A stretch of 64,000 nucleotides of DNA from assembly GCA_028284905.1 (NCBI GenBank), contig JANQQU010000043.1, forward strand, positions 1-64,000. The letters are read 5' to 3'. Shown here one piece after another: positions 1-25,853 of this stretch. The stretch comes from Calditrichia bacterium. GTDB lineage: Bacteria; Calditrichota; Calditrichia; RBG-13-44-9; J075. The notes beneath the pieces are model-generated. The model saw nothing but the letters and a program-made list of their open reading frames with translations. It ran no database searches and had not been told where the DNA came from. Position 1 is the first letter of the stretch. Every line of letters begins with the position of its first letter. The position numbers and the translations under genes are program-made.

Positions 1-2720
1 CCTGCGAAGGAATATCCGGCCTCTGGAGTCGCTGTTAATGTAACGACCGTTGAACTATCATAAATTGCACCACCAGTCGTATCCGGGCTAAAGCCGATGC
101 TGCCATTGCCAACAACCGAGGATGTCAACTGGAACTGGCGAATAAAAGTCGCGGTGACGGTGGTGTTGCTATCAATGTTCACCGAATCGGTCAAAGCGTT
201 GCCACTGAGTGCGCCACTCCAACCGGCGAATGTGTAACCGGAATCGGGCGTAGCAGTGAAGGTGACGACAGTGGCACTGTCGTAGATGGCGCCGACGGTG
301 GTGTCCGGACTGAAGGCGATGTTACCTCCACCGATTGTATTTGCTAGCAGTGAGAACTGACGGATAAAGTTGGCGTTAATGGTGATGCTGGAATCCATGG
401 TCACAGAGTCGGGATTTTCGGAACTGCTGTAATCACCACTCCAGCTGTCGAAGCGGTAAGCAGAGTCTGCTGTGGCAGTCATGGTAACCACTGTCGCGCT
501 ATCGTAGATGCCACCAGCCGGATCAAGTGCAACACTGCCGTTGCTAGCGCTCATTGTGAGCACATAAGCCGGCACGAAAAGCGCTTGCACATTAATGCTG
601 GAATCCATGGTCACTGAATCCGGATTGGCTTTGCTGTTTAAGTCGCCGCTCCAGCCTGCGAAAGAATATCCAGCTTCTGGTGTTGCGGTTAAGGTAACCA
701 CAGTCGCACTATCATAGATGGCTCCACCGGTGGTATCCGGACTGAAGCCGGTGCTGCCATTGCCAACAACCGAGGATGTCAACTGGAACTGGCGGATGAA
801 GGTTGCAGTGACAGTCGTGTTACTATCGATATTCACCGAATCTGTAAGAGCGTTGCCACTGAGTGCGCCGCTCCAACCGGCGAATGTGTAACCGGAATCG
901 GGCGTTGCAGTGAAGGTGATGACAGTGGCACTGTCATAAATCGCACCGCCGGTCGTATCCGGACTGAAGGCGATATTGCCCCCACCAATTGTATTTGCTA
1001 GCAGTGAGAACTGTCGAATAAAGTTGGCGTTGATAGCGATACTGGAATCCATGGTCACAGAGTCCGGATTTTCGGAACTGCTGTAATCACCATTCCAGCT
1101 GTCGAAGCGGTAAGCAGAATCTGCTGTGGCAGTCATGGTAACCACCGTCGCGCTATCGTAGACGCCACCAGCCGGATCAAGTGCAACAATGCCGTTGCTG
1201 GCATTCATTGTAAGCACATAAGCCGGAACGAAAAGGGCCTGGATGGAGATGCTGGAATCCATGGTGACTGAATCTGGATTGGCATTGCTGTTTAAGTCAC
1301 CGCTCCAGCCTGCAAAGGCATAGCCAGGATCCGGCGTTGCGGTTAATGTAACGACGGTAGCGCTATCATAAATTGCACCACCAGTCGTATCCGGGCTAAA
1401 GCCGATGCTGCCATTGCCAACAACCGAGGATGTTAACTGGAACTTGCGGATGAAGGTTGCAGTGACAGTGGTGTTGCTATCAATGTTCACCGAATCTGTC
1501 AGAGCGTTACCACTGAGAGCGCCGCTCCATCCGACAAAAGTGTATCCGGAATCAGGTGTAGCTGTAAAGGTGACGACCGTAGCGCTGTCATAAATCGCAC
1601 CGCCAGTCGTATCCGGACTGAAGGCGATGTTACCTCCACCGATTGTATTTGCTAGCAATGAGAACTGGCGAATAAAATTGGCGTTAATGGTGATGCTGGA
1701 ATCCATGGCCACAGAGTCCGGATTTTCGGAACTGCTGTAATTACCACTCCAGCTATCGAAGCGGTAGGCAGAATCTGCGGTAGCAGTCATGGTAACCACC
1801 GTCGCGCTGTCGTAGATGCCACCAGCCGGATCAAGCGCAACGCTGCCGTTGCTGGCATTCATTGTGAGCACATAAGCTGGGACGAATAGCGCCTGGACAG
1901 TGATGCTGGAATCCATGGTTACCGAATCTTGATTCGAGGCGCTGATCAAATCACCGCTCCATCCTGCGAAGGAGTAACCAGAATCTGGAGTCGCAGTTAA
2001 GGTAACGACCGTAGCGCTGTCGAATATCGCACCGTCAGTCGTATCCGGGCTAAAGCCGATGCTGCCATTGCCAATAACCGAAGAAATCAACTGGAACTGG
2101 CGAATGAAGTTCGCCTGTATACTCATGCTGGAATCCATTGTCACGGAATCGGGATTTGTTACACTGGAGAGATCTCCAGTCCATTCTCTGAAGGAATAAC
2201 CGGAATCCGGGATTGCCGTCAATGTCACAACCGTGGCACTATCATAGCTGCCCCCCGATGGACTTAGCACAACACTACCGTGATTGCTAGTAGTGGTTAA
2301 CGTAAATCCCGGCGTAAATAAAGCTTGAAGTGTTATTGTTGAATCCATCTGTAACGAATCAGTCGCGAGATTGCCGACGAAATCGCCACTCCAGCCGGCA
2401 AAAATAAAACCGGAGTCTGGTATCGCAGAAATACTAACAACTGTTGCGCTATCGTAAACAGCACCGCCGCTGGTATCCGGATCAAAAGTAATGCTGCCAT
2501 TGCCAACCACAGAACTAATTAGCTGATAGCGAGGAATAAAGCGAGCAGTAATCGTAGTGTTGCTGTCAATGTTAACCGAATCAGTGGAAACATTCCCGCT
2601 TAATGCACCACTCCAACCGGCAAATGCAAATCCGGAATCGGGAATGGCAGTAAGCGTAACTACTGAATTACTGTCATATACCGCGCCACCGCTGGTATCC
2701 GGATTAAAAGCAATAGCTCC
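1..2720 (-). repeat. 654-bp higher-order tandem repeat inside the giant gene
   Basis: Three ~72-residue repeats form a 218-residue super-unit. The DNA string 'ccattgccaacaaccgag' occurs at 103, 757 and 1411, and a variant at 2065, each exactly 654 bases apart. The string 'tgtatttgctagca' recurs with the same period (near 335, 989 and 1643). Similarity is highest towards the left edge and decays to the right, so this end was most recently amplified and the array may continue outside the window. Confidence 0.85.
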
Positions 2721-5700
2721 GTTACCAATTGTCGATGCTGTTAAAGAATATTGACGAATATAGTTTGCGGTTACTGATTGGCTGCTGTCCATACTAATAG
2801 AATCGGGATTTTCAGAACTGGTTAAATCACCACTCCAGTTTAGGAAACGATACGCTGAATCCGGCGTCGCTGTTAAAGTAACTACTGTCGCGCTATCATA
2901 AACACCACCAGGCGGATTGAGGCTAACGCTTCCCAAATTACTAATGATGCTAAGTACTTTGCCTTCCCGGAAAAGCGCACCAATATGAATGCTGGAATCC
3001 ATTGTCACTGAATCTGGGTTTGCTGAACCGCTTAAACCTCCGCTCCATTCGGCAAACAGATAGCCAGAATCTGGCGTAGCAGTCATAGTCACAACAGTGG
3101 CACTGTCATAAATTCCTCCACCAGTTGTATCCGGGGTAAATGAAACGGCACCATTGCCGACGACCGATGATGTTAACTGGTATTGTGGAATGAAGCTGGC
3201 GCTAACCGTCGTGTTACTATCAATGCTGACTGAATCTATGGCCGCATTGCTGTTTAATGCGCCACTCCAACCAGCAAATGTAAATCCGGAATCCGGGACT
3301 GCTGTAAATGTTACCACTGTTGCGCTGTCATAGAGACTACCGCCTGTAGTGTCCGGCGTTATAATAATATTGCCATTCAGCGGAGAATTCGCTGATAATG
3401 TGAACTGCCGAATAAAGTTTGCATTTATAATCATGCTGGAATCCATTGTCACCGAATCAGGGTTTGCCGTACTGCTCAAGTTGCCACTCCAGCGATCGAA
3501 TCGATAAGCGGAATCGGCAGTTGCAGTTAGGGTAACGACTGTTGAAGAGTCATAAAATCCTCCCGGCGGATCAAGTGCTACGACACCATTACTGCCAGTG
3601 ATAACTAAAGATACAGCCGGCTGAAAATTCGCCTGAATAGTGATGTTGGAATCGAGTTGAACCGAATCCGTCAATGAACTGCTGGTATAATCGCCGCTCC
3701 ATCCCTGGAAAAGATATCCGCTATCCGGGATGGCTGTTAATGTCACGACAGTGGCACTATCGTAAATGGCCCCGCCGGTAGTATCCGGATTAAAAGTAAT
3801 GCTGCCACCGCTGGTTGCTTGCGCATTCAATGAAAACAGGCGTACTAAATTAAGGCCAACTTCTTTATAGCCATCTATGAGGAGCGTATCGGGATTCTCA
3901 CTGCCGCTTAAGTCCCGATTCCAGGAAAGGAAACGATAGCCGGAGTCCGGGATTGCTGTGAGAATAACCGTATCCAGAGAATCGTAAGCATTGGAAGAAT
4001 CCTCAAGCGTCACTGTTGCATGTGCTGTGTCATAAACGACGATCGAAAATTTATCATTATGGAGCCAGTCCGTCCAGCCCATATTTTTCCCTTGCTCGGG
4101 AATCGGGGAGAGGACCGGATAGTTTGTGCCGAGGTATTCATTGACAGAAAAGGGTAACCAAACGTCGTCGCCAGCTGCCGGGAAATCCGGATAATTATGC
4201 AGCCAATCAAAAGCACGCTTGATCGCCTGATCTTCCCAATCCCAAACATTAAAACCGGCACGATGCAGAATAATCGCGTGAGCGACAGCGCCTTGTAATC
4301 CTTCATAAACATAGCGTTCTTGCGGAGGAGGCCAGGTAAAGGGCACTTCCCGGCGCTGATCATCAGGCAATACGCCGCTAACATCATGACCCTGAATGGT
4401 GGACCCTAATGGATTAATCCCAACCGGATTTGCAGAATCTGCCTGCCAGGATAAATCTGAGCCATATTGAAATGAGGCATAGTAATCCCGGTCTCCTAGC
4501 CATGCGCGCATAATCATAGCAGAGCGGAAAAGTTCTTCATCGTCGTTGAGGTAACGCGCAATCGCCGATCTGCTTGCCCCGGCATATGTTCCCCAGTTGT
4601 TCGGACGGTCTTCATGAGTAGAAATCAATGTCCGGGAATCGAGAACTTCGTAGCGGACATCGCGCAGAAATTGCTTAAAGGTAGAATCTTCCGCGGCTGG
4701 TAATCCTACCAATTCGGCGGCAATAATGTATCCCATCAATTTTCTGCCGAGCGCCAGGGTGCGGCCGCCGGATTGTGTACCAATCGCACTAATTACACCA
4801 CTGATGACTTCTTGTCGATAGGATTCCGTGCCAGTGCGGACATAGACCAGGGCTTTTGCCAGCAATTCGAGATTCGCAGTCTCATTTTGTTCAGAGAGAT
4901 CCGGTTCATCATGCGGTAGATTTGCTGTTTGTAATAGCTTAAACCACGGTGCACCGAGAGTGTCCCGTAAAGCGATCTCTGCTGCAGATGTCCAGATACC
5001 CGAGATTTGCGGCTCCGGCCGGGGGAGAAACATCGCGGTTACGTCAAGGTCTTTATGGATTGTTATTGTGTCGGTTAAGATACTGTCGGTCGCTGTTTCT
5101 TTAAATCCGGCAAATACCCAATCCGTTCCCGGCGTTGCCGTCAGGATTATCTGAGCAGTGCTGTCATACGGACCAACAGCGGGATTGGCGGTGACGGTAC
5201 CCATTCCTAAAGTATCAAGATTCAATGTGAATTTTGAAGGTGCGGGAATAAACGTTGCCGTGACAGTTTGATTGGTGTCCATGGTAACACTATCGGTCGT
5301 TGCATTTCCGGAGAGGCCGCCACTCCATCCCAGGAAAAAGAAACCTGAATCCGGAACTGCAGTTAGGGTAACAACACTCAGACTATCAAAAATACTATCA
5401 CTGGTCGCTTTTTGAATACTGCCCGGTCCGGATGTATTCAGGACTAATGAAAATTGTCGTAAAAAATTCGCTGTAACGGTCTTGTGACTGTCCATCACCA
5501 CACTGTCCGGGTTGGCATTGCCGGAGAGATCATCACTCCAATTGACAAACCGGTAGGCGGAATCCGGCACTGCAGTTAAAGTGACCGTTGCGGCAGAATC
5601 GTACGTCGCTGTTGAAGGATTCGCCAGAATACTGCCATTTGTTGCATTGGCAGTTAAATTAAATTGTGTGGGGATTAATTCGAAGCTGGCGGTAACTGAT

Positions 5701-8700
5701 TTTACCGTATCCATGACAATGCTATCCGGATTCGCCGTGCCCGACAAATCGCCACTCCAACCAGTGAAGTAGTAGCCGGAATCCGGAACGGCGGTTAAAA
5801 TTGCGACGGCAGCTGTGTCGTAAATACCACTCGGCGAATCAAGCGAAACACTGCCATTGCCATTGGAAAAAGTATTCAATGCAAATTGGGTTGGAATTTC
5901 TTCAAAAGTGCCTGTGACGGTTTTTTCACCATTGATATAAATACTGTCAACAAGATTCGTGCTGGCAAGGTCGCCACTCCAATTTACAAAACGCTGACCA
6001 GCATCCGGAGCGGCTGTTAACGTAACATAAGTACCTCCGTAATAAACCCCACCGGGAGGATCCAGCGTTATGCCGCCATTGCCAACGGTATCCACTGTCA
6101 GGGAATATTGCAACTCAGTAATAGAGGTAAATGTTGCGGTAACATTTTTGTGAAAATTCATTGTAACGGAATCCGTCAGGCTGTTTCCGGAAAGATCGCC
6201 ACTCCATCCACTAAAAACATACTCAAAACCCGGTACTGCCGTCAAAGTTACAACGGTCGCACTGTCAAGTTCACTGCCAGCGGGTGTTGCATCGATGCTA
6301 CCTAAGCCGACAGTAGAAGTTGTCAGGCTATAAGCTGGTGTACCTCTGCCGGGTTTGATAGCAAGTCCGATAGCAGACCAGTCAACTGTGCCGCTCAGAG
6401 TACCATCTACCGTTGTTACAGCGGCCGCGGAAACTAATTTTTCCTGCATCACAAGTGTTACTCTGTTGCTATTGCTGCTGCCGTAGTCTTGCTCAAAAAA
6501 CTCTGTAAATCCACTACCGGGAGTATGCGTTCGATTACGAATGCCGGCCATGTTAAATACCAGCATACTGTCTTCGGTCGTGGTTAGATTAAATGAATAG
6601 CTGTTCGTATTGGAACCACCGCTACAGGCGCCATTTTCACCAATCCTATTTCCGGATACGACCGGCCCGACAGGGTTATCCTTATCGACACCGGAGTAAC
6701 GAACGACGGCAATCATGGCATGATCTGGTGCTTTGTCATATACAGCACTGACGACACCATCGCCGCTGGGGGTACCAATCGCCATCCATACCGCCGCGCC
6801 GGATTTATCTCCCCCGGAACATTGTTCGCGGACTTGTGTCCAGGTAAGCCCCATGCCGCTAACACTGGTAACCGACTCTACCGGCTTGGAATTAAGAACC
6901 GCTAAATATAGCTGATTCGTTGCTGCGGTAACATTCCCTGCGGTTGTAAGAAGTGTATTGTCGGAGACTGTGCCAGTGACAATCTCTTCTCTTACGATCG
7001 ATTGAATCCCATATTGGACAAACGAAGCTGTAACAGAGGTTGCCCCATTAACATTCACCGTGGCCGGATTATCCGTACCGCTAAGATTGCCACTCCAGCC
7101 TTCAAAGGAATAGCCGGGATCCGGGACTGCAGTTAAGGTGACATCCGTTGGGGATGTAAAGAGGGTATCAGAAGTGTCTGCGTTTACGATGCCGGGGCCG
7201 GCAGTGTTTATTGTGAGGCGGTGCCCCTCAAAGAAATTTGCAATGACCGATGTATTGGCAGTAATTAACAAGCTGTCCGGATTGTTGCTGCCGGAAAGAT
7301 CGCCGCTCCAGGAAAGAAATTCATAGCCACTTGCCGCCTGCGGGGTAAAAGTTACCATCGTGCCGCCAGTGTAAGTGCCGCCCGGGGGATCGAGAACAAC
7401 GGTTCCGCTGCCGGTATATGTGACAGATACATCGAAAGAAACAGTCGTCCAGGAAACCATCCCGGCAGTTAGCGTTTTATCGCTATCCATAACGATTTGC
7501 AGTGTATCCGATGTGCTGCTGCTGTCCCCACTCCAACTATCAAAAACAAAACCGGAATCTGGGGTTGCGATTATGGTGACAACGGTGGCGCTGTCATAAA
7601 TGCCACCTGGCGGGCTTAAGCTGACGGATCCGTTGCTGACATTTACTGCGAGCGTATATTCAGCCAAAAAGTTCGCGGTTATATTGCGATCTGCCAGCAT
7701 TGCAATACTATCCGGATTTTCGCTACCACTAAGGTCGCCACTCCAGCCGTTAAAGCGATACCCGCTATCCGGGACGGCAGTAAAATGCACAACGGTAGCA
7801 CTATCGTAAATGCCGCCTCCGGTAGTGTCCGGATTGAAGTTGATACTGCCACCATTCCCGCCATCCGCAGTTAAGCGATATTGCCGGATAAAATCCGCTG
7901 TAACGGATTTGTTGGCATTCATGGTGATACTGTCCGGATTATTGCTGCCGGATAAATCTCCACTCCAGGCAGAGAAGCGATATGCGGAATCCGACACCGC
8001 TGTTAACGTAACTACGGTCGCGCTATCGAAAATACTACCGGATGGTTCAGCTGTGATGTTCCCATTGTCTGCAACAAGATCCAAGCTGTAGCTCGGGATA
8101 AAGCTAGCTGTAACATTCCTGTTCGCCGTCATCTGAACACTGTCCGGATTATTGCTGCTGGATAAGTCCCCACTCCATCCGGCAAAAACGTATCCACTAT
8201 CCGGTTGAGCAGTGAGCGTTACAAAAGCAGCAGTGTCATAACTTGCCTGGGCAGGGGAGGGGATTGCCGAACCCTGACCGTCAATGGCAATTGACAGGGT
8301 GAATTGTGCCGGAATTAATTCAAAAGTTGCAGTGACAGATTTCGTGCTATCCATTATCAGACTGTCCGGCGATACGTTGCCACTTAAATCTTCACTCCAT
8401 TCGACAAAGCGATAACCACTATCCGGGATGGCAGTAAAAGAGATGACCGTGGCGCTATCATGCAAACTGCCGCTGGGCGATTGATCTACCGTTCCTTGTC
8501 CGATAGTCGTTACCGAGAGAGGATACTGTGGAATAAAAATAGCGGTAACTTCACGATCAGCATCCATTGTGACGCTATCCGGACTGGCATTGCCGGAGAG
8601 CGCACCAGCCCAACCCAAAAATACAAATCCGGAATCTGCAACAGGCGTAATAGTAACCACTGTGCTGGAATCATACACACCACCGTTGCTGGTGTCCGGA

Positions 8701-11700
8701 CTAAATTGCAGGCTGCCAGCGCCGGTGATGTTGCTGGAGAGCAGGAATTGACGGGTAAACTCAGCGCCGATTGTAAGATTGGAATCTACCTGCACGCTGT
8801 CCGGATTGTTGCTGCCGGATAAATCCCCATTCCAACTGTTAAAGCGATAGGCAGAGTCCGGCACAGCGCTTAGAGTGACCACTGTAGCGCTGTCATAAAT
8901 GCCACCGGGCGGATCCATTGTGACATTACCATTTGACGTTGTAAGGGCTATCTCGTAAGTCGGGGTAAATGTCGCTGTAACAGATTTGTCGCTATTAATG
9001 ATGAGGCTGTCAGGATTTTCAATGCCGCTTAAATCTCCGGACCAGCCAATAAAAGCATTTCCCGAATCTGCTGCAGCTGTCAATGTTACCACTGTAGCAC
9101 TGTCATAAATACCACCAGCCGGATTAAGAACAATATTACCATTCCCGACTACATTGTTGAATAATGTAAAAGCAGGGATAAAGTGAGCGGTTACGGTCAG
9201 GTTAGTATCAATAACCAGACTGTCCGGATTGGTTGAACTGCTCAAATCACCACTCCAGTGACTGAAAAGGAAGCCGGAGTCTGCGACCGCTGTTAGCGTC
9301 ACAACCGTTGCACTATCATAAATACCGCCGCTTGGGGATAAATTAATACTGCCGTTATCGCTGTTGGTAATGAGGCTGTAAGCAGGAATAAAAGTCGCGG
9401 TTATTGCTAAATTACTGTCTATTTGGAGGCTGTCGATGCTGTTTAAGCTGGATAAGTCGCCGCTCCAGCCGGCAAAAGTATATCCGGAATCCGGGGTGGC
9501 AGTTAAGGTAATAACGGTCGCACTGTCATAGATGCCAGCGGAAGTATCCGGACTAATCGTAATATTACCAAACCCAAGTACGGAGGTGGATAACTGATAT
9601 AATGGGATAAAATTTGCCGTTACACTGCTGTTGCTATCAATAACAATACTGTCGTTTAAAGACGTGCTGTTGAGAGAGCCACTCCATCCCGTAAAACGAT
9701 AGCCGGAATCTGGTATTGCGGTAAATGATATTGTTGTTAAAGAATCATATAACCCGCCAGATGTATCCGGAGAAATTGCGATGGCGCCTTGCGATACGGT
9801 ACTTGTGCTTAAAGAATAAAGTCGGATGAAGTCGACGGCAAAGGATTTGTCAGCATTCATTACCAGACTATCGGGATTGTCAACACTGCTTAAATCGCCA
9901 CTCCACTGCGCAAATCGATATGCAGAGTCTGGCAGCGCAGTAATCGTGACAGTTGTTGCACTGTCAAAGATTGTCGTGTCCGGAGCAAACTGGACAGCAC
10001 CGCCGGCATCCGGCATTAAAGTGAGTTGATAAGTTGGAATAAAGACTGCGTTAACAACAGTGTTGGAATCCATTACGACACTATCCGGATTTGCCGTACT
10101 GGTAATAGCATCTTCCCAATGGCTAAAACTATATCCGGAATCGGCAATGGCAGAAAGGACGACTGTCATATCACTGGGATATAATCCACCTGGAGGAGAA
10201 AGGGTAAGGTTGCCGCCTCCCCGGATGTTGGTGGTTAATTGATATTCGGTGCGGAAGATCGCAGATATCGTCATATTGCTATCTACCGATACACTATCCG
10301 GGTTGGTGAATCCGCTATAGTCGCCGCTCCATTCTGCAAAAGCAAATCCGGAGTCCGGAACCGCTGTTAAGGTCACCACAGTGGCACTATCATAAACGCC
10401 GCCGGAAGTATCCGGGGAAATTGTGATACTGCCATTCGCAGCTGGCGTCGTATTAAAGCTGTATAGCGGAACAAAATTAGCGGTAATAGATTTATCGCTG
10501 TTTATGATAAGACTGTCGGTTGTATCGGAACTGCTAATATCACCACTCCAACCGCTAAAACGATATCCGCTATCCGCATTAGCTGTGAATGTAACCACAG
10601 TGGCACTATCATAAATGCCACCGGAAGTATCCGGGGAAATTGTGATACTGCCATTGCCACTTACATTCGAAGTCACTAAAAAGCGCCGGAGAAAGTTTGC
10701 GGTGACGACTTTGCCATTATCCATGAATAAGCTGTTGGGGTTAAGATCCCCGGAAAGAGAATCACTCCAGCCGGTAAAGATGTTTGCAGAATCCGGCGTC
10801 GCGGTTAAAATGACAACTGTCGCACTGTCGTAAGTGCCTCCGCTGGGATCCAAAGATATACTACCGCTGCCGTTGGTTTGTGTAGTGAGGACAAATGATG
10901 TATCGCTGGCAATAGTGTAAGGATTAATTTCAATGGCAATTACCGACCAGTCTGCGCTACCGTTAAAACTGCCATCTACAGCATACGTGGCCGCGGCGCC
11001 GGGAGCCATTTCCTGTAAGCCAAGATTGGCGCGGTTGCTTGCCGTGCTCCCATGACTCTTGTCAAGTAGCTCGGTGTAACCGGCACCCGGGGTGAGGGAT
11101 TTATTGCGGGATCCGACAGCGGCAAAAATCAAGCTGCGTTCATCTGTCGTGGTTAAATTGAATGAGAAGCTGTTACCGTCGGATCCTCCGGAGCATGCAC
11201 CATTTTCACCTAAAGTATTTCCCGCAATTGTATTTCCCAGAGGATTGGCAGGATTGACATATTGATAACGGGAGACAGCAATAATTGCATGGGAAGGATC
11301 ATCCAGAAAGGTTGCTGTCACAACGCCATCACCGCTGGGAGTTCCGATGGCCATCCATACTTCCAATCCGGTATGACTCCGGCCGGAACACTGGGCATGC
11401 ACGCGGGTCCAGGTAAGTCCCAAACCTGTAACAACATCTACATCTTCCTGGGATTTTGTTGTTATGGAAGCCAGATAAAGTTGATCATCTACTGCCGCGA
11501 CATTTCCGGTGGTTGACACTGTAAATAAGCCGGAAGATGACCCGGTATCTATCGCAACTACTGTTGGCGCTAAGGAACCTTGTTGAACAAAGTTCGCCGT
11601 TACTGTCTTATCACCATCGATGTTAATACTGTCCGGATTAGCGTTACCCTGTAAATCGCCGCTCCAGCCGGTAAAAACAAATCCATTGGCTGGTATTGGC

Positions 11701-13961
11701 GTTAAAGTTACTGTTGAACCTCCGAAATATGTACCGCCGGCGGGAGCGAGTTGCACGCTGCCAAATCCGCTTGTATTCACTGTAAGGTCAAACTGTTGCG
11801 TGGTGATATCTACGAAATTGGCGGTAATATTCTTGTCGCCATCCATGGTGATGTCCAGCGATGATTCCGAGCTGGTTGAATCGCCGCTCCAGCCGGTAAA
11901 TATGAATCCGGCTGCCGGTGTAGCGCTGAGAGTAATTGTACTGGCGCTGTCATAGATGCCACCGGCCGGGTCGAAATTAACACTACCGGAGCCAATTGTT
12001 TGCGCCGTCAGACTATATTGCCGAATAAAGGTCGCCGAGACTGAAAAATGATCGGTCATTAACAATGTATCCGGATTCTCACTACCGGATAAATTGCCAT
12101 TCCAATTACTAAACCGATATGCTGAATCCGCTGTCGCTGTGAGAATAACTAATGTGCTGTCGGAGTAAACACCGCCCCCAGGATTGGCAGCAATTGTGCC
12201 ACCGGTGTTTTGAGTAATTGTCAGGTTTTTGATTATCGTTAATGTATCGGCGCTTTCTGTGGGGCCGGCAGTCGTGGTCACGCGAATAGTTCCTGTGGTG
12301 GCGCTGTCAGGTACTATTAATCTAAGTTGACTGGTAGAGTCTACAACAAAACTATCTACGGTAACACCTGCAACGGCTAATGCTGTTATCTGCTCAAAAT
12401 GACTACCGATGACGGTAATTTCCTGGCCAATATCTGCGCTATCCGGGGAGAAGGCACCGATTACAGGAGGCGAGGGAAAATCGTCTGTCTGAATAGTTCC
12501 AACGCCGGTGCTGTCGTTAATATCCGCATTGACTGACCCGCTCAGGTGAACCTTAAAAAACTCATCGGATTCAATCTCGCTATCACTGCTGATGGTAATG
12601 TCAATTGGCTGGGTTGTTGTCCCGACCGGGAAATTTAACGTTCCACTGGCGGAAATATAGTCTGAGGGATTCAGCGCTGTGCTATCTGCCGTTTGATAGT
12701 TTACCGTAGATGTGCTGCCGTTGGGTGAATTGAGAGTGACGGTAAATTGGAGGAGTTGTGTGCCGGTGTCACCTTCCAGAACGGTTGTATCGTTAATCGT
12801 GAAAAAGGGACTGGGCGCTCCCGCAATGATCGTTAATGTATCTGCAGTTTCCAATTCACCGTCATCAACCAGTAATTCAAAAGTGTAGGTGCCATATGTT
12901 GGGAATGTAATTTCCGGTTGAATTACCGTTGTGCTGTTAAATATGGCAGTATCAATGCCGCTTATCTGGCGCCAGGTAGTGGTATATGCTCCGGGAGAAA
13001 GCGGGACGCCATCATCACTGGCGCGGGAAGTCGTGGTAAAATTTATTGGTAAGAAACCGGCCAGGGTTGTATCACTTCCGATTTCTATACATGGCTGAGC
13101 ATTGTAGATTGTTGGGCTGCCATTATAAGGGTTCCGGACATAGGAAAACCAATTTACCGGATCGGTAGTTATTGTTACTTCTAATGGTTGCTCAATTTCT
13201 CCTTCCGCTATCTGGATGCGATGCACGTTGGTTGCAACAGTAAAAGGATCATCTTCCAGCCAATAGTGTAAATCACCATTGATAAACAAAACCGGTTTGG
13301 CAAAACTGCTGGCGGAGATTTCAAACGGATCGAAAAATTGTTCATGGATAGTGCGGCCGGGCCCGGCATGAGAAAATATTACAGCCGCCCGTACACTATC
13401 TTTGTAATTGGTAAAATTAGTATCTATCCAGGCAGCGCCATCGGCCATAAAATCTTCCCAGACGCTAACATCATGGATTGCTCCGCCAACCATATTTAAG
13501 CCGATAAATAAAACACCACTCTCTATAAAGGCAAAATTTTCATGACGAACACTCTGGTGCATTACGTCCGGTGTACCGCAGAACTTGTCTTCATAATTGT
13601 AAAAATATTGTTCCCATAAGATCCAGGCGGCATTCGGATCAACACAGTCGTTCCATTCATTGTCGCCGGGGATAATGAAAACAGGCACAGCGGCATCGAG
13701 CATTATATCATGCGCATCCTGGTAATATTGATTGACACAAGCACTTCCCCCGGTTTTAATGTCACCAATGTGGATGATAAATTCTGACTGGCTGTAAAGA
13801 TTATGGTTGGCAATATAGGAACTTAAATTGGCGTTTTGAGTCGCCCCATAAGGAATATCACCGGTTACGGTAAACGTAATCGCATCCCCCTGGGCGAATA
13901 ATGTGGAAAGTTGACTGAATAAAATCAGCCAACAAAAAATCTGGAGAGTATATCTTTTCAT
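1..13961 (-). CDS. Giant exported multidomain protein: metallophosphoesterase, repeat array, alginate-lyase-like domain (partial, runs off left edge)
   Basis: ATG at 13961; the frame stays open to base 1, giving at least 4653 codons. A signal peptide ends near 'LFAQGD'. Residues ~25-240 form a calcineurin-like phosphoesterase, with motifs 'VTGDIPYG', 'IHIGDI', 'GDNEW', 'FSHAG' and 'NGDLHYW'. A Calx-beta-like domain (~387-490) and an IPT/TIG domain (~497-574) follow. Then come about 45 copies of a ~72-residue InlB-B/Flg_new_2-like repeat (core 'GWSGDLSG.NPDSVTMDS..TVTANF'). These are interrupted by two ~215-residue modules (DNA 10880-11575 and 6340-7010) and an alginate-lyase-like domain (DNA 4050-5010). 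The frame at base 59 and in the lyase domain matches that of the start codon, so I see no frameshift. The C-terminus and any sorting signal lie outside the window. The role is inferred: a secreted or surface protein acting on phosphoesters and uronate polysaccharide. Phosphoesterase substrate unknown. Confidence 0.88.
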   Translation of the reverse strand, partial: MKRYTLQIFCWLILFSQLSTLFAQGDAITFTVTGDIPYGATQNANLSSYIANHNLYSQSEFIIHIGDIKTGGSACVNQYYQDAHDIMLDAAVPVFIIPGDNEWNDCVDPNAAWILWEQYFYNYEDKFCGTPDVMHQSVRHENFAFIESGVLFIGLNMVGGAIHDVSVWEDFMADGAAWIDTNFTNYKDSVRAAVIFSHAGPGRTIHEQFFDPFEISASSFAKPVLFINGDLHYWLEDDPFTVATNVHRIQIAEGEIEQPLEVTITTDPVNWFSYVRNPYNGSPTIYNAQPCIEIGSDTTLAGFLPINFTTTSRASDDGVPLSPGAYTTTWRQISGIDTAIFNSTTVIQPEITFPTYGTYTFELLVDDGELETADTLTIIAGAPSPFFTINDTTVLEGDTGTQLLQFTVTLNSPNGSTSTVNYQTADSTALNPSDYISASGTLNFPVGTTTQPIDITISSDSEIESDEFFKVHLSGSVNADINDSTGVGTIQTDDFPSPPVIGAFSPDSADIGQEITVIGSHFEQITALAVAGVTVDSFVVDSTSQLRLIVPDSATTGTIRVTTTAGPTESADTLTIIKNLTITQNTGGTIAANPGGGVYSDSTLVILTATADSAYRFSNWNGNLSGSENPDTLLMTDHFSVSATFIRQYSLTAQTIGSGSVNFDPAGGIYDSASTITLSATPAAGFIFTGWSGDSTSSESSLDITMDGDKNITANFVDITTQQFDLTVNTSGFGSVQLAPAGGTYFGGSTVTLTPIPANGFVFTGWSGDLQGNANPDSINIDGDKTVTANFVQQGSLAPTVVAIDTGSSSGLFTVSTTGNVAAVDDQLYLASITTKSQEDVDVVTGLGLTWTRVHAQCSGRSHTGLEVWMAIGTPSGDGVVTATFLDDPSHAIIAVSRYQYVNPANPLGNTIAGNTLGENGACSGGSDGNSFSFNLTTTDERSLIFAAVGSRNKSLTPGAGYTELLDKSHGSTASNRANLGLQEMAPGAAATYAVDGSFNGSADWSVIAIEINPYTIASDTSFVLTTQTNGSGSISLDPSGGTYDSATVVILTATPDSANIFTGWSDSLSGDLNPNSLFMDNGKVVTANFLRRFLVTSNVSGNGSITISPDTSGGIYDSATVVTFTANADSGYRFSGWSGDISSSDTTDSLIINSDKSITANFVPLYSFNTTPAANGSITISPDTSGGVYDSATVVTLTAVPDSGFAFAEWSGDYSGFTNPDSVSVDSNMTISAIFRTEYQLTTNIRGGGNLTLSPPGGLYPSDMTVVLSAIADSGYSFSHWEDAITSTANPDSVVMDSNTVVNAVFIPTYQLTLMPDAGGAVQFAPDTTIFDSATTVTITALPDSAYRFAQWSGDLSSVDNPDSLVMNADKSFAVDFIRLYSLSTSTVSQGAIAISPDTSGGLYDSLTTISFTAIPDSGYRFTGWSGSLNSTSLNDSIVIDSNSSVTANFIPLYQLSTSVLGFGNITISPDTSAGIYDSATVITLTATPDSGYTFAGWSGDLSSLNSIDSLQIDSNLAITATFIPAYSLITNSDNGSINLSPSGGIYDSATVVTLTAVADSGFLFSHWSGDLSSSTNPDSLVIDTNLTVTAHFIPAFTLFNNVVGNGNIVLNPAGGIYDSATVVTLTAAADSGNAFIGWSGDLSGIENPDSLIINSDKSVTATFTPTYEIALTTSNGNVTMDPPGGIYDSATVVTLSAVPDSAYRFNSWNGDLSGSNNPDSVQVDSNLTIGAEFTRQFLLSSNITGAGSLQFSPDTSNGGVYDSSTVVTITPVADSGFVFLGWAGALSGNASPDSVTMDADREVTAIFIPQYPLSVTTIGQGTVDQSPSGSLHDSATVISFTAIPDSGYRFVEWSEDLSGNVSPDSLIMDSTKSVTATFELIPAQFTLSIAIDGQGSAIPSPAQASYDTAAFVTLTAQPDSGYVFAGWSGDLSSSNNPDSVQMTANRNVTASFIPSYSLDLVADNGNITAEPSGSIFDSATVVTLTAVSDSAYRFSAWSGDLSGSNNPDSITMNANKSVTADFIRQYRLTADGGNGGSINFNPDTTGGGIYDSATVVHFTAVPDSGYRFNGWSGDLSGSENPDSIAMLADRNITANFLAEYTLAVNVSNGSVSLSPPGGIYDSATVVTIIATPDSGFVFDSWSGDSSSTSDTLQIVMDSDKTLTAGMVSWTTVSFDVSVTYTGSGTVVLDPPGGTYTGGTMVTFTPQAASGYEFLSWSGDLSGSNNPDSLLITANTSVIANFFEGHRLTINTAGPGIVNADTSDTLFTSPTDVTLTAVPDPGYSFEGWSGNLSGTDNPATVNVNGATSVTASFVQYGIQSIVREEIVTGTVSDNTLLTTAGNVTAATNQLYLAVLNSKPVESVTSVSGMGLTWTQVREQCSGGDKSGAAVWMAIGTPSGDGVVSAVYDKAPDHAMIAVVRYSGVDKDNPVGPVVSGNRIGENGACSGGSNTNSYSFNLTTTEDSMLVFNMAGIRNRTHTPGSGFTEFFEQDYGSSNSNRVTLVMQEKLVSAAAVTTVDGTLSGTVDWSAIGLAIKPGRGTPAYSLTTSTVGLGSIDATPAGSELDSATVVTLTAVPGFEYVFSGWSGDLSGNSLTDSVTMNFHKNVTATFTSITELQYSLTVDTVGNGGITLDPPGGVYYGGTYVTLTAAPDAGQRFVNWSGDLASTNLVDSIYINGEKTVTGTFEEIPTQFALNTFSNGNGSVSLDSPSGIYDTAAVAILTAVPDSGYYFTGWSGDLSGTANPDSIVMDTVKSVTASFELIPTQFNLTANATNGSILANPSTATYDSAATVTLTAVPDSAYRFVNWSDDLSGNANPDSVVMDSHKTVTANFLRQFSLVLNTSGPGSIQKATSDSIFDSLSVVTLTAVPDSGFFFLGWSGGLSGNATTDSVTMDTNQTVTATFIPAPSKFTLNLDTLGMGTVTANPAVGPYDSTAQIILTATPGTDWVFAGFKETATDSILTDTITIHKDLDVTAMFLPRPEPQISGIWTSAAEIALRDTLGAPWFKLLQTANLPHDEPDLSEQNETANLELLAKALVYVRTGTESYRQEVISGVISAIGTQSGGRTLALGRKLMGYIIAAELVGLPAAEDSTFKQFLRDVRYEVLDSRTLISTHEDRPNNWGTYAGASRSAIARYLNDDEELFRSAMIMRAWLGDRDYYASFQYGSDLSWQADSANPVGINPLGSTIQGHDVSGVLPDDQRREVPFTWPPPQERYVYEGLQGAVAHAIILHRAGFNVWDWEDQAIKRAFDWLHNYPDFPAAGDDVWLPFSVNEYLGTNYPVLSPIPEQGKNMGWTDWLHNDKFSIVVYDTAHATVTLEDSSNAYDSLDTVILTAIPDSGYRFLSWNRDLSGSENPDTLLIDGYKEVGLNLVRLFSLNAQATSGGSITFNPDTTGGAIYDSATVVTLTAIPDSGYLFQGWSGDYTSSSLTDSVQLDSNITIQANFQPAVSLVITGSNGVVALDPPGGFYDSSTVVTLTATADSAYRFDRWSGNLSSTANPDSVTMDSSMIINANFIRQFTLSANSPLNGNIIITPDTTGGSLYDSATVVTFTAVPDSGFTFAGWSGALNSNAAIDSVSIDSNTTVSASFIPQYQLTSSVVGNGAVSFTPDTTGGGIYDSATVVTMTATPDSGYLFAEWSGGLSGSANPDSVTMDSSIHIGALFREGKVLSIISNLGSVSLNPPGGVYDSATVVTLTATPDSAYRFLNWSGDLTSSENPDSISMDSSQSVTANYIRQYSLTASTIGNGAIAFNPDTSGGAVYDSNSVVTLTAIPDSGFAFAGWSGALSGNVSTDSVNIDSNTTITARFIPRYQLISSVVGNGSITFDPDTSGGAVYDSATVVSISAIPDSGFIFAGWSGDFVGNLATDSLQMDSTITLQALFTPGFTLTTTSNHGSVVLSPSGGSYDSATVVTLTAIPDSGYSFREWTGDLSSVTNPDSVTMDSSMSIQANFIRQFQLISSVIGNGSIGFSPDTTDGAIFDSATVVTLTATPDSGYSFAGWSGDLISASNQDSVTMDSSITVQALFVPAYVLTMNASNGSVALDPAGGIYDSATVVTMTATADSAYRFDSWSGNYSSSENPDSVAMDSSITINANFIRQFSLLANTIGGGNIAFSPDTTGGAIYDSATVVTFTATPDSGYTFVGWSGALSGNALTDSVNIDSNTTVTATFIRKFQLTSSVVGNGSIGFSPDTTGGAIYDSATVVTLTATPDPGYAFAGWSGDLNSNANPDSVTMDSSISIQALFVPAYVLTMNASNGIVALDPAGGVYDSATVVTMTATADSAYRFDSWNGDYSSSENPDSVTMDSSIAINANFIRQFSLLANTIGGGNIAFSPDTTGGAIYDSATVITFTATPDSGYTFAGWSGALSGNALTDSVNIDSNTTVTATFIRQFQLTSSVVGNGSTGFSPDTTGGAIYDSATVVTLTATPEAGYSFAGWSGDLNSKANPDSVTMDSSINVQALFVPAYVLTMSASNGSVALDPAGGIYDSATVVTMTATADSAYRFDSWSGDYSSSENPDSVTMDSSITINANFIRQFSLLANTIGGGNIAFSPDTTVGAIYDSATVVTFTATPDSGYTFAGWSGALSGNALTDSVNIDSNTTVTATFIRQFQLTSSVVGNGSIGFSPDTTGGAIYDSSTVVTLTATPEAGYSFA
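4050..5010 (-). other. Alginate-lyase-like catalytic domain embedded in the giant protein
   Basis: About 320 residues (~2984-3304 of the protein) carry no InlB-like repeats. They match the alginate lyase family (PF05426 type): 'ANLELLAKALVYVRTG', 'GGRTLALGRKLMGYIIAAEL', 'STHEDRPNNWGTYAGASR', 'DLSWQADSANPVGINP', 'YEGLQGAVAHAIILHRAG' and a closing 'GKNMGWTDWLH'. The NNWG region is where this superfamily carries catalytic residues. It begins after 'ISGIWTSAAEIA' and ends just before the next repeat. Substrate is likely a uronate-containing polysaccharide, but the exact one cannot be read from sequence. Confidence 0.78.
6340..7010 (-). other. Unnamed ~215-residue module, second copy in the giant protein
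   Basis: Reads 'SGMGLTWTQVREQCSGGD', 'AAVWMAIGTPSGDGVVSAVY', 'MIAVVRYSGVDKDNPVGPV', 'NGACSGGSNTNSYSFNL', 'MAGIRNRTHTPGSGFTEFF' and 'VDWSAIGLAIKPG'. It has the same order of boxes and the same two cysteines as the other four copies. It separates the 18-repeat block from the short block before the lyase domain. Confidence 0.7.
10880..11575 (-). other. Unnamed ~215-residue module, first copy in the giant protein
   Basis: Between repeat blocks the protein has a segment with 'VTGLGLTWTRVHAQCSGR', 'LEVWMAIGTPSGDGVVTATF', 'IIAVSRYQYV', 'NGACSGGSDGNSF', 'AAVGSRNKSLTPGAGYTEL' and a closing 'ADWSVIAIEI'. A second copy lies at 6340-7010 and three more lie in the neighbouring giant gene (about 21815-22485, 18725-19395 and 17175-17875). 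All five keep the 'GLTWT' box and two cysteines. I do not recognise a named family. The pattern of strands and glycines suggests a beta-sandwich; the cysteine pair could form a disulfide outside the cytoplasm. Confidence 0.7.
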
Positions 13962-14970: not shown

Positions 14971-15978
14971 TTATTGCTGAACAGGTGCGGAATCGCTGTC
15001 TGCCGTATTTTCCAGCTTTTCGATCATCTTTTGCGCATTATTGTTTCGGGGGTTTAATTGCAGAGATTTTCGGTAATTTTTTATCGCCAGATCACGCTTT
15101 CCGGCGTTCATATACGCTTCTCCGAGACTGTCAAAAGCATTGCTGGATTCCGGGAAATCACGAGTGTAATAATGGAAAATAGTCAATGCATCTTCCAGTC
15201 TTTTTTCTGCCAGTAATTGATAACCGAGGCTATTGAGATCCTGTTCGTGAAATAAAATTTCAGTGCCTTTTGCGGATTTTTCGCCAAGATAAATTTCGTA
15301 TCCTTTTTCGATCCCGGCATTGCTAACAGCGTCGGCAAGAATTTCCCGCCCTCTGCGAACTGCAAGTATTTTAAGTTCTATACGAACGCTATCGGCAACA
15401 AACATTTGTCCGGTGGACGCCATTACGTCATTGTACTTCCAAAAGCTTTTTTCCGGGTCTTCAAGATGGATGCCATAGTCTTTTCTGTTGACAGTAAAAC
15501 TACCGGTATACCCGGCATATTTACGCATCGGGCCTTGTGTGATTGCCTTAATCGTCGGTTGGAATTTTATCTGAACTGCTTTACTGATGCCGCGCATTTC
15601 CAGGGTGCCATTCAGGAGGAAATAGTTCCCGTATTTGCGAATGTTATTGCTGCTAAAAGTTATTGTCGGATATGTTTCGGCATCAAACCAGTTAGCGCTT
15701 CGCAGGTCCTTATCCCGAAATTCCATACCGGTGTTAATACTGGCAACGCTAATGGTAATCTTCGTGGAAAAGTCGCTTATATTTTCCGGATTTAGAGATA
15801 AACTGCCGGAAAAATTTTCAAAGCGGCCATCCGCTTCTATGATGCCACCGGCATAACCGACAGAAAAACCGATTTTCGAATGTATGCGATCAATGCTAAA
15901 AGTTTGTTTCTCCTGGGCAAGCACTGTTTGCAACAGGCAGAATGTTGTGAGAAGCAGAAACTGACGAATAATAAACAT
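14971..15978 (-). CDS. Exported YceI-domain protein with C-terminal TPR
   Basis: 335 residues with a signal peptide (~1-21, cleavage near 'VLA|QEKQ'). Residues ~22-205 are a YceI-like lipocalin fold: 'FSIDRIHSKIGFSVGYAGG', 'FSGSLSLNPEN', 'SANWFDAETYPTITF', 'LNGTLEMRGISKAVQI' and 'VNRKDYGI'. In this family the barrel binds isoprenoid or similar lipids. Residues ~245-320 contain TPR-like helices ('GYQLLAEKRLEDALTIFHYY', 'SLGEAYMNAGKRDLAIKNYR'). YceI proteins are normally ~190 residues without TPRs, so this is a fusion. It is predicted periplasmic. Start is the ATG after 'ggagga' at about -8. Confidence 0.85.
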   Translation of the reverse strand: MFIIRQFLLLTTFCLLQTVLAQEKQTFSIDRIHSKIGFSVGYAGGIIEADGRFENFSGSLSLNPENISDFSTKITISVASINTGMEFRDKDLRSANWFDAETYPTITFSSNNIRKYGNYFLLNGTLEMRGISKAVQIKFQPTIKAITQGPMRKYAGYTGSFTVNRKDYGIHLEDPEKSFWKYNDVMASTGQMFVADSVRIELKILAVRRGREILADAVSNAGIEKGYEIYLGEKSAKGTEILFHEQDLNSLGYQLLAEKRLEDALTIFHYYTRDFPESSNAFDSLGEAYMNAGKRDLAIKNYRKSLQLNPRNNNAQKMIEKLENTADSDSAPVQQ

Positions 15979-16178: not shown

Positions 16179-19100
16179 TTATTCCTCTAAAGTCGTGCTA
16201 TTATTTCCTGATGCAGACGTATCATTTCTGTCTAAAGGCGTTGTGTTTGTGCCTGTCGATCCGCCCGGCGAAGCTGGCGCTGTTGGCATTGATTCTCCAA
16301 CATTGCTGGAGGAGCCCAAATTGCTACGCCAGAACAGGTTGAGGTCTTCAATGTCGATGCTACCATCCAGATTGAGGTCGGCTTTCTTTATGTATTCCCA
16401 GGTGGTGCCGTTTTGAAATCGCCATACGGAATCGCGATCGGCCATATCGATAATACCATCTGCATTTGCATCACCGGCAATCATCCCATAGACGCCGGAA
16501 GAGAGTTCCTTCATTGGCGTACTCCCGTAGGCTTTCGCGATATTGTCACTAAAATCATAAACGGTGTTGCTATCCGTCAAAGAAACAGTGGTTGCGCTCA
16601 TTATGGATAGGTGATTCCGGTGCTTCAGAACGATATAATAGTCTCCATATTCAATACCGGGAAAAGGAACACCCGCTGCACCGGCAGTATCTGCAATTTG
16701 CCCGTCTTTTAAAATCATTGCAGCGCAAGTGGCAACAATGCTATCTGGAGAAGGTGCAGAACGTAATTCCAGCAGCATCCAGTCGATGGTATTCGCAGGA
16801 AGAGCCGATGGGTTTTCCGTGCCTTCGTATAACCAGGGCGTTTCATTGAATGGCTGCGTCAGCGGAATTAAATTATCACTGGCCAACGTACTGTCCATGC
16901 TGCCGTTTCGGTATGGCCCTTCCAGGAATGTTTTTGCATAAACCCGAAGCGGCAGATTCGCTACAAAGGTCGCAGTGATTGATTTAGCGCTGTTCATCGT
17001 CAAGCTGTCTGTTGAATCCGTACCGATAATATCGCCACTCCAACCGCTGAAAGTCCAGCCGCTATCGGCCAATGCAGTGACGGTTACCACGGATGCACTA
17101 TCATATAATGCACCTCCGCTGGTATCCGGGGAAAAGCTGATGCTGCCACTGCCAACAATACTGCTATTTAAAGTGAATTGTGTTGGTGTGCTGCTACCAG
17201 CCGGCATAATTGCCAGGGCAGTCATAGACCAGTCTACAGATCCGCTAAAAGCACCTTTGACGTCTGTCGAGTCCGTGACCGGCGCCGGTTTATACTGTAG
17301 CGACAAGGTGGCTTGATTACTACCACTGCCGGAGGACTGATCGAAAAATTTACTATACTGACCACCAGGCGTATGAATTTTATTCCGACTGCCAACGGCA
17401 TTAAATATAATTCCATCGAAGTTCGGCACGGCAATACGGAAAATATAGCTGGAATTATCACTGCCACTGCCGTCGCAAATCCCATCCAGGCCGAGGGTAT
17501 TTCCGGAAATTGTTTCTGTAATGGGTACCGTAGTATCGACACCGGACCAGCGAGTAACGCCAATGACGGCAAAGCTGGGTGCGTCGGAAAATACTGCGGT
17601 AACGACACCAGCACCGGTTGGTGTACCGATCGCCTGCCAGATTTCCACAGTGGAATGATTACGGGCAGAACACTGTCTGCGAACGAGCGTCCAGGTTAAT
17701 CCCAAACCAGTCACAGTAGAAATCGTTTCATTCGGTTTGCTACTGATGGTTGCCAGGTAAAGATGATCATTATGCGCACTAATGACACTGTCGGTAGAAA
17801 CGATCAGTGATGATTCGGAAGTGCCGCCAACTGTTTCTGCGAGATAGATCTCCTCGTTAAATATTGCAGAAATGGTTTTGCTGGTGTCCATGGTGATCGT
17901 TTCCGGATTGGTGCTTCCGCTTAGATCTCCGGCCCAGGAAGAAAACAAGCCCCCGGCGCCCGGTATCGCTGTTACCGTAACAATCGTTCCCGGTGCATAG
18001 CTGCCTCCGGCAGGGGAAAGTTCCACACTACCATTGCCAATTGCCGTCGCAGTCAACTGAACTGCCGGGCTAAATGATGCGCCCACCGATGTGTCACTTT
18101 CCAGGGAAAAGACCAACGGGTTATCTGTGCCACTGGGGCCAGAATTCCAATTTGCAAAAAAGTAGGCGCTATCGGGAGTAGCGGTAAGCGTTATCGTCGT
18201 TGCACTATCAAACACTGCACCTCCGCTGGTATCCGGCGTGCTGCTTATGCCACCATTTAAAGCTGGTAATAAGCTTAAGTGAAATTGGCGGATAAACATT
18301 CCCTGAATATTTTTATCCGAATTCATCGTTAGATTCAGGGTGTCTGCGTTGCTAGTTGTATCGCCGGACCAGCCGACAAATCGATATGCACTATCTGCCG
18401 TAGCTACCAATTGAACAACGGTTGTGCTGTCATAAATGCCAGCACTGCTATCCGGGGAAATACTGATTGATCCACCGGTATTATTGTTTGTGGATAGTAA
18501 AAATCGCCGTATAAAATTTGCCGTCGCGGTCATACTGGAATCCATTACAACGGAGTCCGGATTTGCACTACCACTGATAGCACCACTCCAGTGGGAAAAG
18601 ACATAGCCACTATCGGGAACAGCTGTTACCGCCACCGTATCTCCGGCAGAATAACTGCTCAGGTCGGGATTCCGTAAAATACTGCCTCCAATGCTGGACG
18701 GTGTATTCAAAGTAAAGCCGGGAGGGCCACTGCTGCCGGCGGGCATAATTGCTAAACCGGCCAGAGACCAATCCACGGACCCGCTAAATGAGCCATCAAC
18801 ATCCGTCGAGTCGGTGACAGGCGCCGGTTTATACTGCAGTGACAGGGTCGCCTGATTGCTACCGCTACCGGAAGAGTGCTCAAAGATTTCACTGAAATTT
18901 GTGCCGGGAAAATGTGTTTTATTTCTGCTGCCTGCCGCGTTGAATATAATTGATTCACTATGCGGCACATTCATTCGGAAGGAATAGGCAGAGTTGTCGC
19001 TGCCACTGCCGCTGCAACTGCCATTAAGGCCCTGAGTGTTGCCGGAAAATACCTCTGTCAGCGGTGTCGTGGTATCCACACCAGACCAACGGGAGACAGC

Positions 19101-22100
19101 AATTACTGAAAAATCCGGTTCATCATTAAATGTTGCGGTAACGATGTCGTCGCCCGACGGTGTTCCCATAGCTTGCCAGATTTCCACCATAGAGTGATTG
19201 CGGGCAGAACATTGCCGGCGAACCAACGTCCAGGTTAATCCCATTCCGGTAACCGAGCTAATGGTTTCATGGGGTTTACTGCTAATCGTCGCCAGGTATA
19301 ATTGATCCGTTGCTGCAGTAACATTACTGTCTGTGGAAACGATAAATGATTCACCAGCAGTACCGCCAACAACATCCTCAAAAACGATAGATTGACCAAA
19401 TGTGGCAGAAATGTTTTTGTTCCCATCCATGGTAATTGTTTCGGGATTGTTGCTGCCGGATAAATCTCCGCTCCAGGCCGCAAAACTAGCACCGGCACCG
19501 GAATTCGCCGTTACGGTGACAACAGTACCGGCGGCATAACTACCACCGGCAGGAGACAACTCGATACTTCCATTTCCGAAAACAGTGGATGAAAGCGTAA
19601 AAGGAACAATAAATGCTGGTTCAACATGCGTGTCAGCAGTTAAGTTAAAGGCGTAAGGGTTTTCATTGCCAGCTAAATCCGGGCCCCAATTATCCAGGCT
19701 GTAGCTGCTGTCCGGATTAGCGGTTAAAGTGATTGTCGTAGCGCTATCGAGAAGAACACCACTAATGGTATCCGGATCAATTGTAAAGGTACCATTTGAA
19801 ACACTTGAATACGTAAAGGTGAATTGACGTATAAAGGTCGCAATTACTTGCTTGTCGGTGTTCATGTTAACTGATATCGTATCTGCGGTATTACTAGTGT
19901 CCCCACTCCATCCGGCAAACCGATAGCCACTGTCCGGGATGGCGATCATTTCAACAACTGTTAAGCTATCGTAGATGCCCCCACCAGTTGTATCCGGAGA
20001 AAAGGAGATACTGCCTCCGCCAATAACACTATCTGAGAGCACGAATTGGCGGACAAAATTTGCGGTCACCGCGAGATTGCTATCCATTGTTACACTATCG
20101 GGAGTGACGCTGCCGGAGAGGTCGCCACTCCAGCTGGTAAATCGGTATGCGGAATCCGCTTCAGCAGTCAGAATAACTGTTGCTGCGGAATCGTAACTTG
20201 CTAAATCCGGTTGTCTGAGGACAGATCCAGCGCCATTGCTGGTTGTCGCTAAAGAAAATTGAGTTGGCATTAACATAAATGCGGCGGTAACTGTTTGGTC
20301 ACTATCCATGGTAATACTATCGGGATTATTGACACCGGAAAGCCCGCCGGACCATCCTGCAAAGGTGTATCCACTATCCGGAACGGCTGTTAAACTAACA
20401 ACGGTTGCACTGTCATAAAGCGCGCCGCCTGTTGTATCCGGTATAAAAGTGATGACCCCGTTACTGCTTGTATTTGCGGTTAATTGATATTCGCGGATAA
20501 AAAGGGCATTTACAGTGCGGTCACTATCCATTGTAACGGAATCGGTTAAACTGGCGCCACTAACATCACCACTCCAGCCGGCGAATCGATAACCACTATC
20601 CGGGGTTGCGATCATTTCAACGACGGTTAAACTATCGTAGATGCCTCCACCAGTTGTATCCGGAGAAAAGGAAACACTACCTCCGCCAATTACGCTACCC
20701 GAGAGCATGAATTGACGGAGAAAATTTGCGGTTACTACGAGATTACTATCCATTGTTACACTATCCGGACTGCTGTTACCGGAAAGGTCACCGTTCCAGC
20801 CAGTAAAGCGGTAAGCTGAATCTGCAGTCGCAGTTAAAGTGACTGTCGCCGCTGAGTCATAACTCACCATATCCGGTTGGCGAACAATCGACCCATGACC
20901 ATTAGTGATAGTTGTTAAGGAAAATTGTGTTGGTAATAATGTGAACGAAGCAGTAACAGTTTTATCGCTGTCCATTCGAATGCTATCCGGATTGCTTGTT
21001 CCTGATAGTCCGCCGGACCAACCTGAAAAGCCATATCCACTATCCGGAACAGCGGTCATAGTGACAACGGTTGCACTGTCATAAAGGGCACCACCTGTCG
21101 TGTCCGGTGTAAAATTGATAGCACCGTTACCGGCTGTATTCGCAATTAATTGATATTCGCGGACAAACAGGGCATTTACAGTGCGGTCACTATCCATCGT
21201 AACAGAATCGGTTAAACTGGCGCCACTAACATCACCACTCCAGCCGGCAAATCTGTAGCCGCTGTCCGGCACTGCAGTAAATGTGATAACGGTGAGGCTA
21301 TCATAAATAAATTCAGCTTCGATTGGTGGAAAGTTTATACTTCCGCCTCCGCTAGCTGTGCTGGTTAACTTAAACTGGCGAATAAAAGTGGCGTTAACCG
21401 TTGTGTTGCTATCCATTTCAACACTGTCAGGATTTACACTTCCGGAAAGCACTCCGCTCCAGCCGGTAAATCGATAGGCGGAATCCGCAGTCGCTGTTAA
21501 CACAACCGTTTCAGACGAATCATATAATGCCTGATCGGGAGAGCGTTGAATAGTGCCACTGCCACTAATGTTGGTTGTCAGACTATACTGCGGGGTTAGC
21601 GAAGTAAAAGTTGCTGTGACAGTTTTATTACCACTCATGGTAACACTATCGGGATTAGAATTGCCGGACAATTCGCCGCTCCAGCCAGTAAATTCAAATC
21701 CGGCATCCGCAGTCGCAGTAAGTTCAACGACAGTGTTTTCATCGTAAGTGCCACCGGCGGGATTCAAGCTAACGCTGCCACTACCAACGGTTTGGGTAGC
21801 AAGCGTATATTGTGGTGTACCGCTGCTGCCGCTTTTTAATTCCAGACCGATAACTGCCCAGTCTGTGGAGCCGCTTAACGAGCCATTAACGGCAACCGGA
21901 TCCAGTAAGGATACCATTTTGTCCTGCAAAGCTAAACCGATTTTGTTGCCGGAACTACCGACGGTTGTTTCCGCTTGTTCCGTATATCCACTACCTGGCG
22001 TATTCGTTTTGGTTCTGGTCGCTACTAATGCGACGATCATCGTGCCAGTACTTTCCGGTGTCAGCGACAGGTTGTAGCTGCTGTTATCACTACCACCGCT

Positions 22101-25849: not shown

Positions 25850-25853
25850 AAAA

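Follow-up and report, generated by a model that had tools for sequence, protein, structure and literature searches.

The window analysed here spans the initial 64 kb of contig C61 (C61:1-64000) in a Calditrichota genome of 8.55 Mb and 93 contigs, and its left end is occupied by a giant gene that reads towards the contig edge (Table 1). The frame begins with ATG and is free of stop codons up to that edge; because the window begins at C61:1, the gene is truncated by the end of the contig and not by the window. GC content at third codon positions (GC3) is uniform along the frame. The initial annotation described an exported protein of at least 4653 codons in one uninterrupted frame, with a phosphoesterase head and a lyase domain physically linked on a repeat stalk. 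The frame, the export signal and the stalk architecture all stand: a Sec signal peptide, MKRYTLQIFCWLILFSQLSTLFAQ, is evident in the translation, and both domains share the frame with an extensive array of InlB B-repeats. Pfam recognises 46 stretches of this repeat (Flg_new_2, E = 0), a custom repeat model arrives at the same count in blocks of 3, 18, 6 and 19, and the earlier estimate had been about 45. The last repeats of the 19-repeat array form a three-unit superrepeat of 654 bp. TRF at default settings reports no array in the first 14 kb of the window, presumably because the repeat units are too diverged or have a period above 500 bp.

Table 1. Features of the giant gene and of the neighbouring endonuclease paralogue (positions in the window)
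Feature	Position	Strand	Basis or remark
Giant ORF, 4653 codons	3..13961	-	open at contig start
Sec signal peptide MKRYTLQIFCWLILFSQLSTLFAQ	13890..13961	-	translation
Calcineurin-like metallophosphoesterase-fold head, aa 25-295	13077..13889	-	fold model, family motifs, PF00149 in relatives
PKD-like domain, weak, aa 324-378	12828..12992	-	Pfam; equivalent place in relative L039
Calx-beta, aa 391-477	12531..12791	-	Pfam
TIG-like domain, aa ~498-578	12228..12470	-	position of PF01833 in relative L039
3 InlB B-repeats, aa 580-793	11583..12224	-	Pfam, repeat model
Unnamed ~210-aa module, copy 1, aa 796-1015	10917..11576	-	also on other giants
18 InlB B-repeats, aa 1025-2316	7014..10889	-	repeat model
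Unnamed ~210-aa module, copy 2	6348..7001	-	same module as copy 1
6 InlB B-repeats, aa 2546-2980	5022..6326	-	repeat model
Alginate-lyase-like (alpha/alpha) toroid, aa 2981-3304, NNW at Asn-His site	4050..5021	-	
19 InlB B-repeats, last one cut by contig edge	3..4037	-	almost certainly continues on C51 (L024:3-3275)
2520-aa paralogue: endonuclease I head, 17 B-repeats, 3 unnamed modules, dockerin-like C-terminal module	16179..23741	-	

Among the smaller domains, the Calx-beta proposed earlier is recognised by Pfam (1.3e-13), and a K319L-like PKD domain scores 5e-4, under its Pfam cut-off. Pfam does not call a TIG domain in the giant itself but does call PF01833 at the corresponding position of the relative L039 (1.1e-8), from which we infer the position of a TIG-like domain here. 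Two unnamed modules had also been proposed; two are indeed present, but both are copies of a single ~210-aa module, which finds no Pfam match. The same module recurs one to three times per related giant at many loci.

In the source genome, B-repeat proteins run off contigs C61, C56 and C74 and run onto C51, C24 and C43. The best pairing joins C61 with C51 (2415 bits, 85% over 2.1 kb), followed by C56 with C24 (820 bits) and C74 with C43 (282 bits), each far ahead of the alternatives. No exact overlap was found between the ends of C61, C51, C24 and C56, so the C61-C51 join is judged by repeat similarity, on which the giant gene almost certainly continues on C51. The superrepeat register indicates at least 87 residues missing between the two contigs, and together with both parts this gives a minimum length of 5830 aa (4653 + 87 + 1090). 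The C51 part would add 11 B-repeats, bringing the total to at least 57, and a C-terminal module of ~225 aa. Two more giant genes are split similarly at contig ends (C56:1/C24:1 and the end of C74/C43:1); in the C74-C43 protein, a lyase domain is accompanied by a Por-type tail.

Since B-repeat arrays break the assembly at six contig ends in this genome, the linkage of head and lyase might itself be an assembly artefact, in which halves of different genes were joined over repeats. The repeat content of the gene makes this highly improbable. Between the start codon and the 3' limit of the lyase domain, exact repeats reach 35 bp at most within the gene and 24 bp at most in the comparison with further B-repeat loci. 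Long near-identical copies are confined to the last array, 3' of the lyase domain, where the 654-bp superrepeats have 82-85% mutual identity and where the contig does break. With no long repeats lying between head and lyase, misassembly there is very unlikely, and the fusion as an artefact was rejected on repeat length. No other case of both domains in one frame was found among the collected head- or lyase-bearing frames, several of which are cut by contig ends.

The isolated head finds no significant Pfam match (best 0.24), nothing meaningful in NCBIfam and no real match in the PDB by sequence or profile; only fold comparison found relatives of known structure. Its AF2 model (pLDDT 92.8) is matched by Foldseek to calcineurin-like folds, namely GAP50 (5e-9), Mre11 and acid sphingomyelinase (aSMase). 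A head family of 54 members was assembled from 79 named loci (Planctomycetota, Verrucomicrobiota, Bacteroidota and others) together with Calditrichota copies; the closest named relative is labelled Calditrichota, and most relatives are free-standing single-domain proteins of ~300 aa. Nine of the 54 match PF00149 (Metallophos), the best at 1.4e-8. Membership of the metallophosphoesterase fold is well supported by the predicted structure, so that the calcineurin-like phosphoesterase head of the initial annotation holds as to fold, but not as to a canonical motif or a Pfam match of its own.

The canonical metallophosphoesterase motif is D-GD-GNH[E/D]-H-GHxH (PMC8366450). In the giant, the corresponding positions read D11, GD43, GDNE75-78, H174 and GDxH205-208 (domain numbering): D11, GD43 and H208 are retained, whereas GNH[E/D] has become GDNE and GHxH has become GDxH. 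Over the 54 head sequences, which come from several phyla, D11, H40, D43, K45, D76, N77, E78, H208, R224 and two Cys are invariant, and H174 is retained in 48. Because the altered residues are invariant or nearly so, the alignment suggests a conserved variant active site and not decay. The literature consulted holds nothing on a GDNE metallophosphoesterase.

The second enzyme-like domain is recognised directly, with Alginate_lyase (PF05426) matching the isolated domain above the Pfam cut-off (6.1e-8) and matching 16 of the 19 family members (best 2.6e-15). Its AF2 model (pLDDT 93.1) gives seven Foldseek matches at E<=0.001, comprising PL38, PL17 and PL5 alginate lyases and one more alginate lyase whose entry title names no family; the best of these align with a TM of about 0.5 and 12-15% identity. 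PDB searches by sequence or profile returned no real match, NCBIfam held nothing meaningful, and a plasmid search for the domain found none. The family is without the C-terminal beta-sheet domain found in larger toroid lyases. An (alpha/alpha) toroid of alginate-lyase type, forming a distinct family, is well supported by the model.

At the Asn-His site of this toroid, the giant reads N141-N142-W143, in which the Asn is retained and the His is replaced by Trp. NNW is also present in most relatives, and NNH is found in one divergent copy on a contig from a viral collection. An hhalign comparison of the lyase profile with the lyase-like proteins of the same genome was too weak to establish homology but aligned NNW to the HNHG site. 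Alginate lyases of PL5, PL15, PL17, PL38 and PL39 have a conserved His here; several glycosaminoglycan (GAG) lyases of toroid fold, by contrast, list Asn alone as neutraliser (PMC12088678). With the catalytic His of alginate lyases replaced by Trp, an alginate substrate cannot be assumed for the giant; the alginate-lyase-like domain named earlier is borne out in profile and fold, but not in this residue. Among relatives, two contigs (G030:C547 and G031:C158; L125-L131) encode three to four tandem lyase-like domains within one frame. IMG/VR contigs (L132-L136) also carry lyase-like domains, and in L135 two lie in adjoining frames, one with the canonical NNH.

The C-terminal module that the C51 part would supply has no Pfam or NCBIfam name. 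It occurs in 19 copies in the source genome, each closing a protein. A profile of 18 copies matches exclusively dockerin-bearing PDB entries (2vn5_B, 9e-6) over positions 152-220, the match to solved dockerins covering residues 158-220, the last ~60 of the module. Dockerin_1 (PF00404) is found at E<=0.1 in 10 of the 18 copies, the giant's own copy on C51 being weak (0.04), and the module family has the duplicated calcium-loop sequence of dockerins. The initial annotation had proposed checking whether the gene closes with a T9SS sorting domain; neither a Por_Secre_tail nor an equivalent CTD was found at the predicted C-terminus on C51, which is formed by the dockerin-like module instead. Por_Secre_tail has at least 150 matches in the source genome, and head relatives in two other genomes (G031 and G024), like the C74-C43 lyase protein, end in Por-type tails, read from sequence except in L039, where the tail is just under the Pfam cut-off. 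It follows from these tails that the dockerin-ended module replaces a T9SS tail in the giant gene, that the same kinds of stalk bear either terminus, and that T9SS remains the likely export route for the giant. The Caldithrix genome paper makes no mention of T9SS or dockerin.

The heads that precede this module are diverse. The neighbouring 2520-aa paralogue has an endonuclease I head (EndoI, 9.6e-25); a protein at C51:13069 has an EEP-type domain (1.7e-5), and in one at C51:6917 a propeller-like head is joined by a second lyase domain. Further examples include proteases on C36, both reprolysin-like and subtilase, and one amylase-like protein on C88. If the C61-C51 join holds, the endonuclease giant, the giant itself and three more module-bearing proteins form one same-strand cluster. 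The giant, at least ~5,800 aa long, is one of a family of mix-and-match, modular giant surface proteins. A YceI-like domain protein with TPR (14971-15978, minus strand) lies between the two giants. Genes for a LytTR response regulator, a histidine kinase and a LiaF-like membrane protein (23989-26585, minus strand) adjoin the endonuclease giant and are possible regulators.

How the module acts is the point on which two readings divide. If it behaves as a dockerin, its partner may be one of the three cohesins found above cut-off in the source genome. Alternatively, it may be a different T9SS sorting or anchoring domain, whose dockerin-like loops serve just as a calcium-stabilised core with no cohesin partner, a reading to which we give a little less than an even chance. 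Its position in place of Por_Secre_tail on the same kind of stalk protein is consistent with such a role, as is its distribution: 9 of the 13 module-bearing Calditrichota genomes have no cohesin match, and the module recurs in the class to which a Phaeodactylibacter genome belongs, where 21 of 198 genomes have it, frequently more than once, with only its first ~170 positions aligning in many matches. Set against this are the profile matches, all of them to dockerin-bearing entries from cellulosomal proteins, and the arrangement at C36:57632-65942 (L156), where three module-bearing proteins (two reprolysin-like proteases and one subtilase) have as their direct downstream neighbour a cohesin protein of 298 aa bearing a Por_Secre_tail. 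Among the 40 genomes of the phylum comparison set, the module is present in 13, cohesin in 8 and both in 4, compared with about 2.6 expected; cohesin anchoring thus gets no support from co-occurrence and stays a hypothesis.

Taken as a whole, the protein would be an exported stalk held at the surface or in the matrix, with two enzyme-like modules and a dockerin-type C-terminal hold, a reading that we consider about evenly balanced. Sec export would be followed by passage across the outer membrane, probably through T9SS, with the C-terminal module staying at the cell surface, perhaps bound to a cohesin or some other partner. The repeat chain, with at least 57 units of InlB type, on which the head and lyase modules stand ~2,700 residues apart, could then carry both off the cell into a polymeric matrix, where the head may act on phosphate esters and the toroid may bind or cleave a uronate-containing glycan. 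The giant probably arose by module shuffling between paralogues with common B-repeats. As both active sites depart from canonical motifs, catalysis and the joint release of phosphate and uronate proposed at the outset are plausible but unproven, the phosphorylated or nucleotide-linked polymer of that proposal being a candidate substrate; we know of no experimental activity for any family member.

The same departures are compatible with a different role, in which head and toroid are ligand-binding pseudo-enzymes and the giant is an adhesin gluing cells or matrix without degradation. InlB repeats, Calx-beta, PKD and TIG domains, all carried by the giant, are typical of adhesins; the head's top fold match, GAP50, is a membrane anchor according to its PDB title; and the tandem lyase arrays of relatives include internal copies without the Asn pair (NEPNRKG, KKASNTG). 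We nonetheless hold this purely adhesive role to be rather unlikely, given that the head motif residues are (nearly) invariant in a family of mostly free-standing proteins, that the giant's toroid retains NN, an Arg pair and the Tyr in a DGxLP...YVYE stretch, and that paralogues with the same C-terminus bear recognisable endonuclease, reprolysin, subtilase and amylase-like heads. The reading of an exported stalk with two enzyme-like modules can be extended to a cellulosome-like, non-cellulolytic display, in which T9SS-anchored cohesins would hold giant stalk enzymes through an X-dockerin-like C-terminus common to them all; nucleases, phosphoesterases, lyases and proteases would thereby cooperate on the matrix far from the cell, the giant contributing two catalytic modules. 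This extension is speculative and, in our judgement, improbable.

At this locus a single polypeptide, no shorter than about 5,800 residues, unites two unrelated hydrolase/lyase folds. It also brings to notice two enzyme-like families that are conserved yet altered in their active sites. More useful is the set of 19 surface proteins with interchangeable heads in one Calditrichota genome, which have in common an unnamed dockerin-ended module also present in Bacteroidota. Should this module bind the cohesins of its own genome, the range of cellulosome-type assembly would come to include the degradation of matrix and nucleic acids, in a T9SS organism.

Known systems resemble the giant part by part. 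Its head is like the calcineurin-like superfamily (PF00149; GAP50, Mre11, acid sphingomyelinase) in fold and in the order D/GD/G-x-x-E/H/G-x-x-H, but differs in its GDNE and GDxH motifs and in going unrecognised by Pfam. The toroid has the (alpha/alpha) fold and PF05426 match of PL5 (AlgL, A1-III, Smlt1473), PL38 (BoPL38) and PL17, and keeps the Asn of the Asn-His site and the Arg and Tyr of DGxLPxxxRR...YVYE; in contrast to these enzymes, it has Trp for His and sits within a repeat stalk. Gene clusters encoding surface proteins thousands of residues long are likewise known from Apilactobacillus kunkeei Giant1-5 (PMC12863079), although these belong to a lactic acid bacterium and have beta-solenoid heads, and the abstract of that account describes no such catalytic heads. 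T9SS CTD cargo with modular enzymes (PMC5831590) is similarly exported and multi-modular, in keeping with the abundance of Por_Secre_tail in the source genome, but the giant is without that tail. Cellulosomal X-dockerin enzymes, finally, also join a C-terminal extra module and dockerin-like calcium loops to diverse catalytic heads, whereas in the giant the first module is different, the organism is one with T9SS, and the cohesin partner is only putative.
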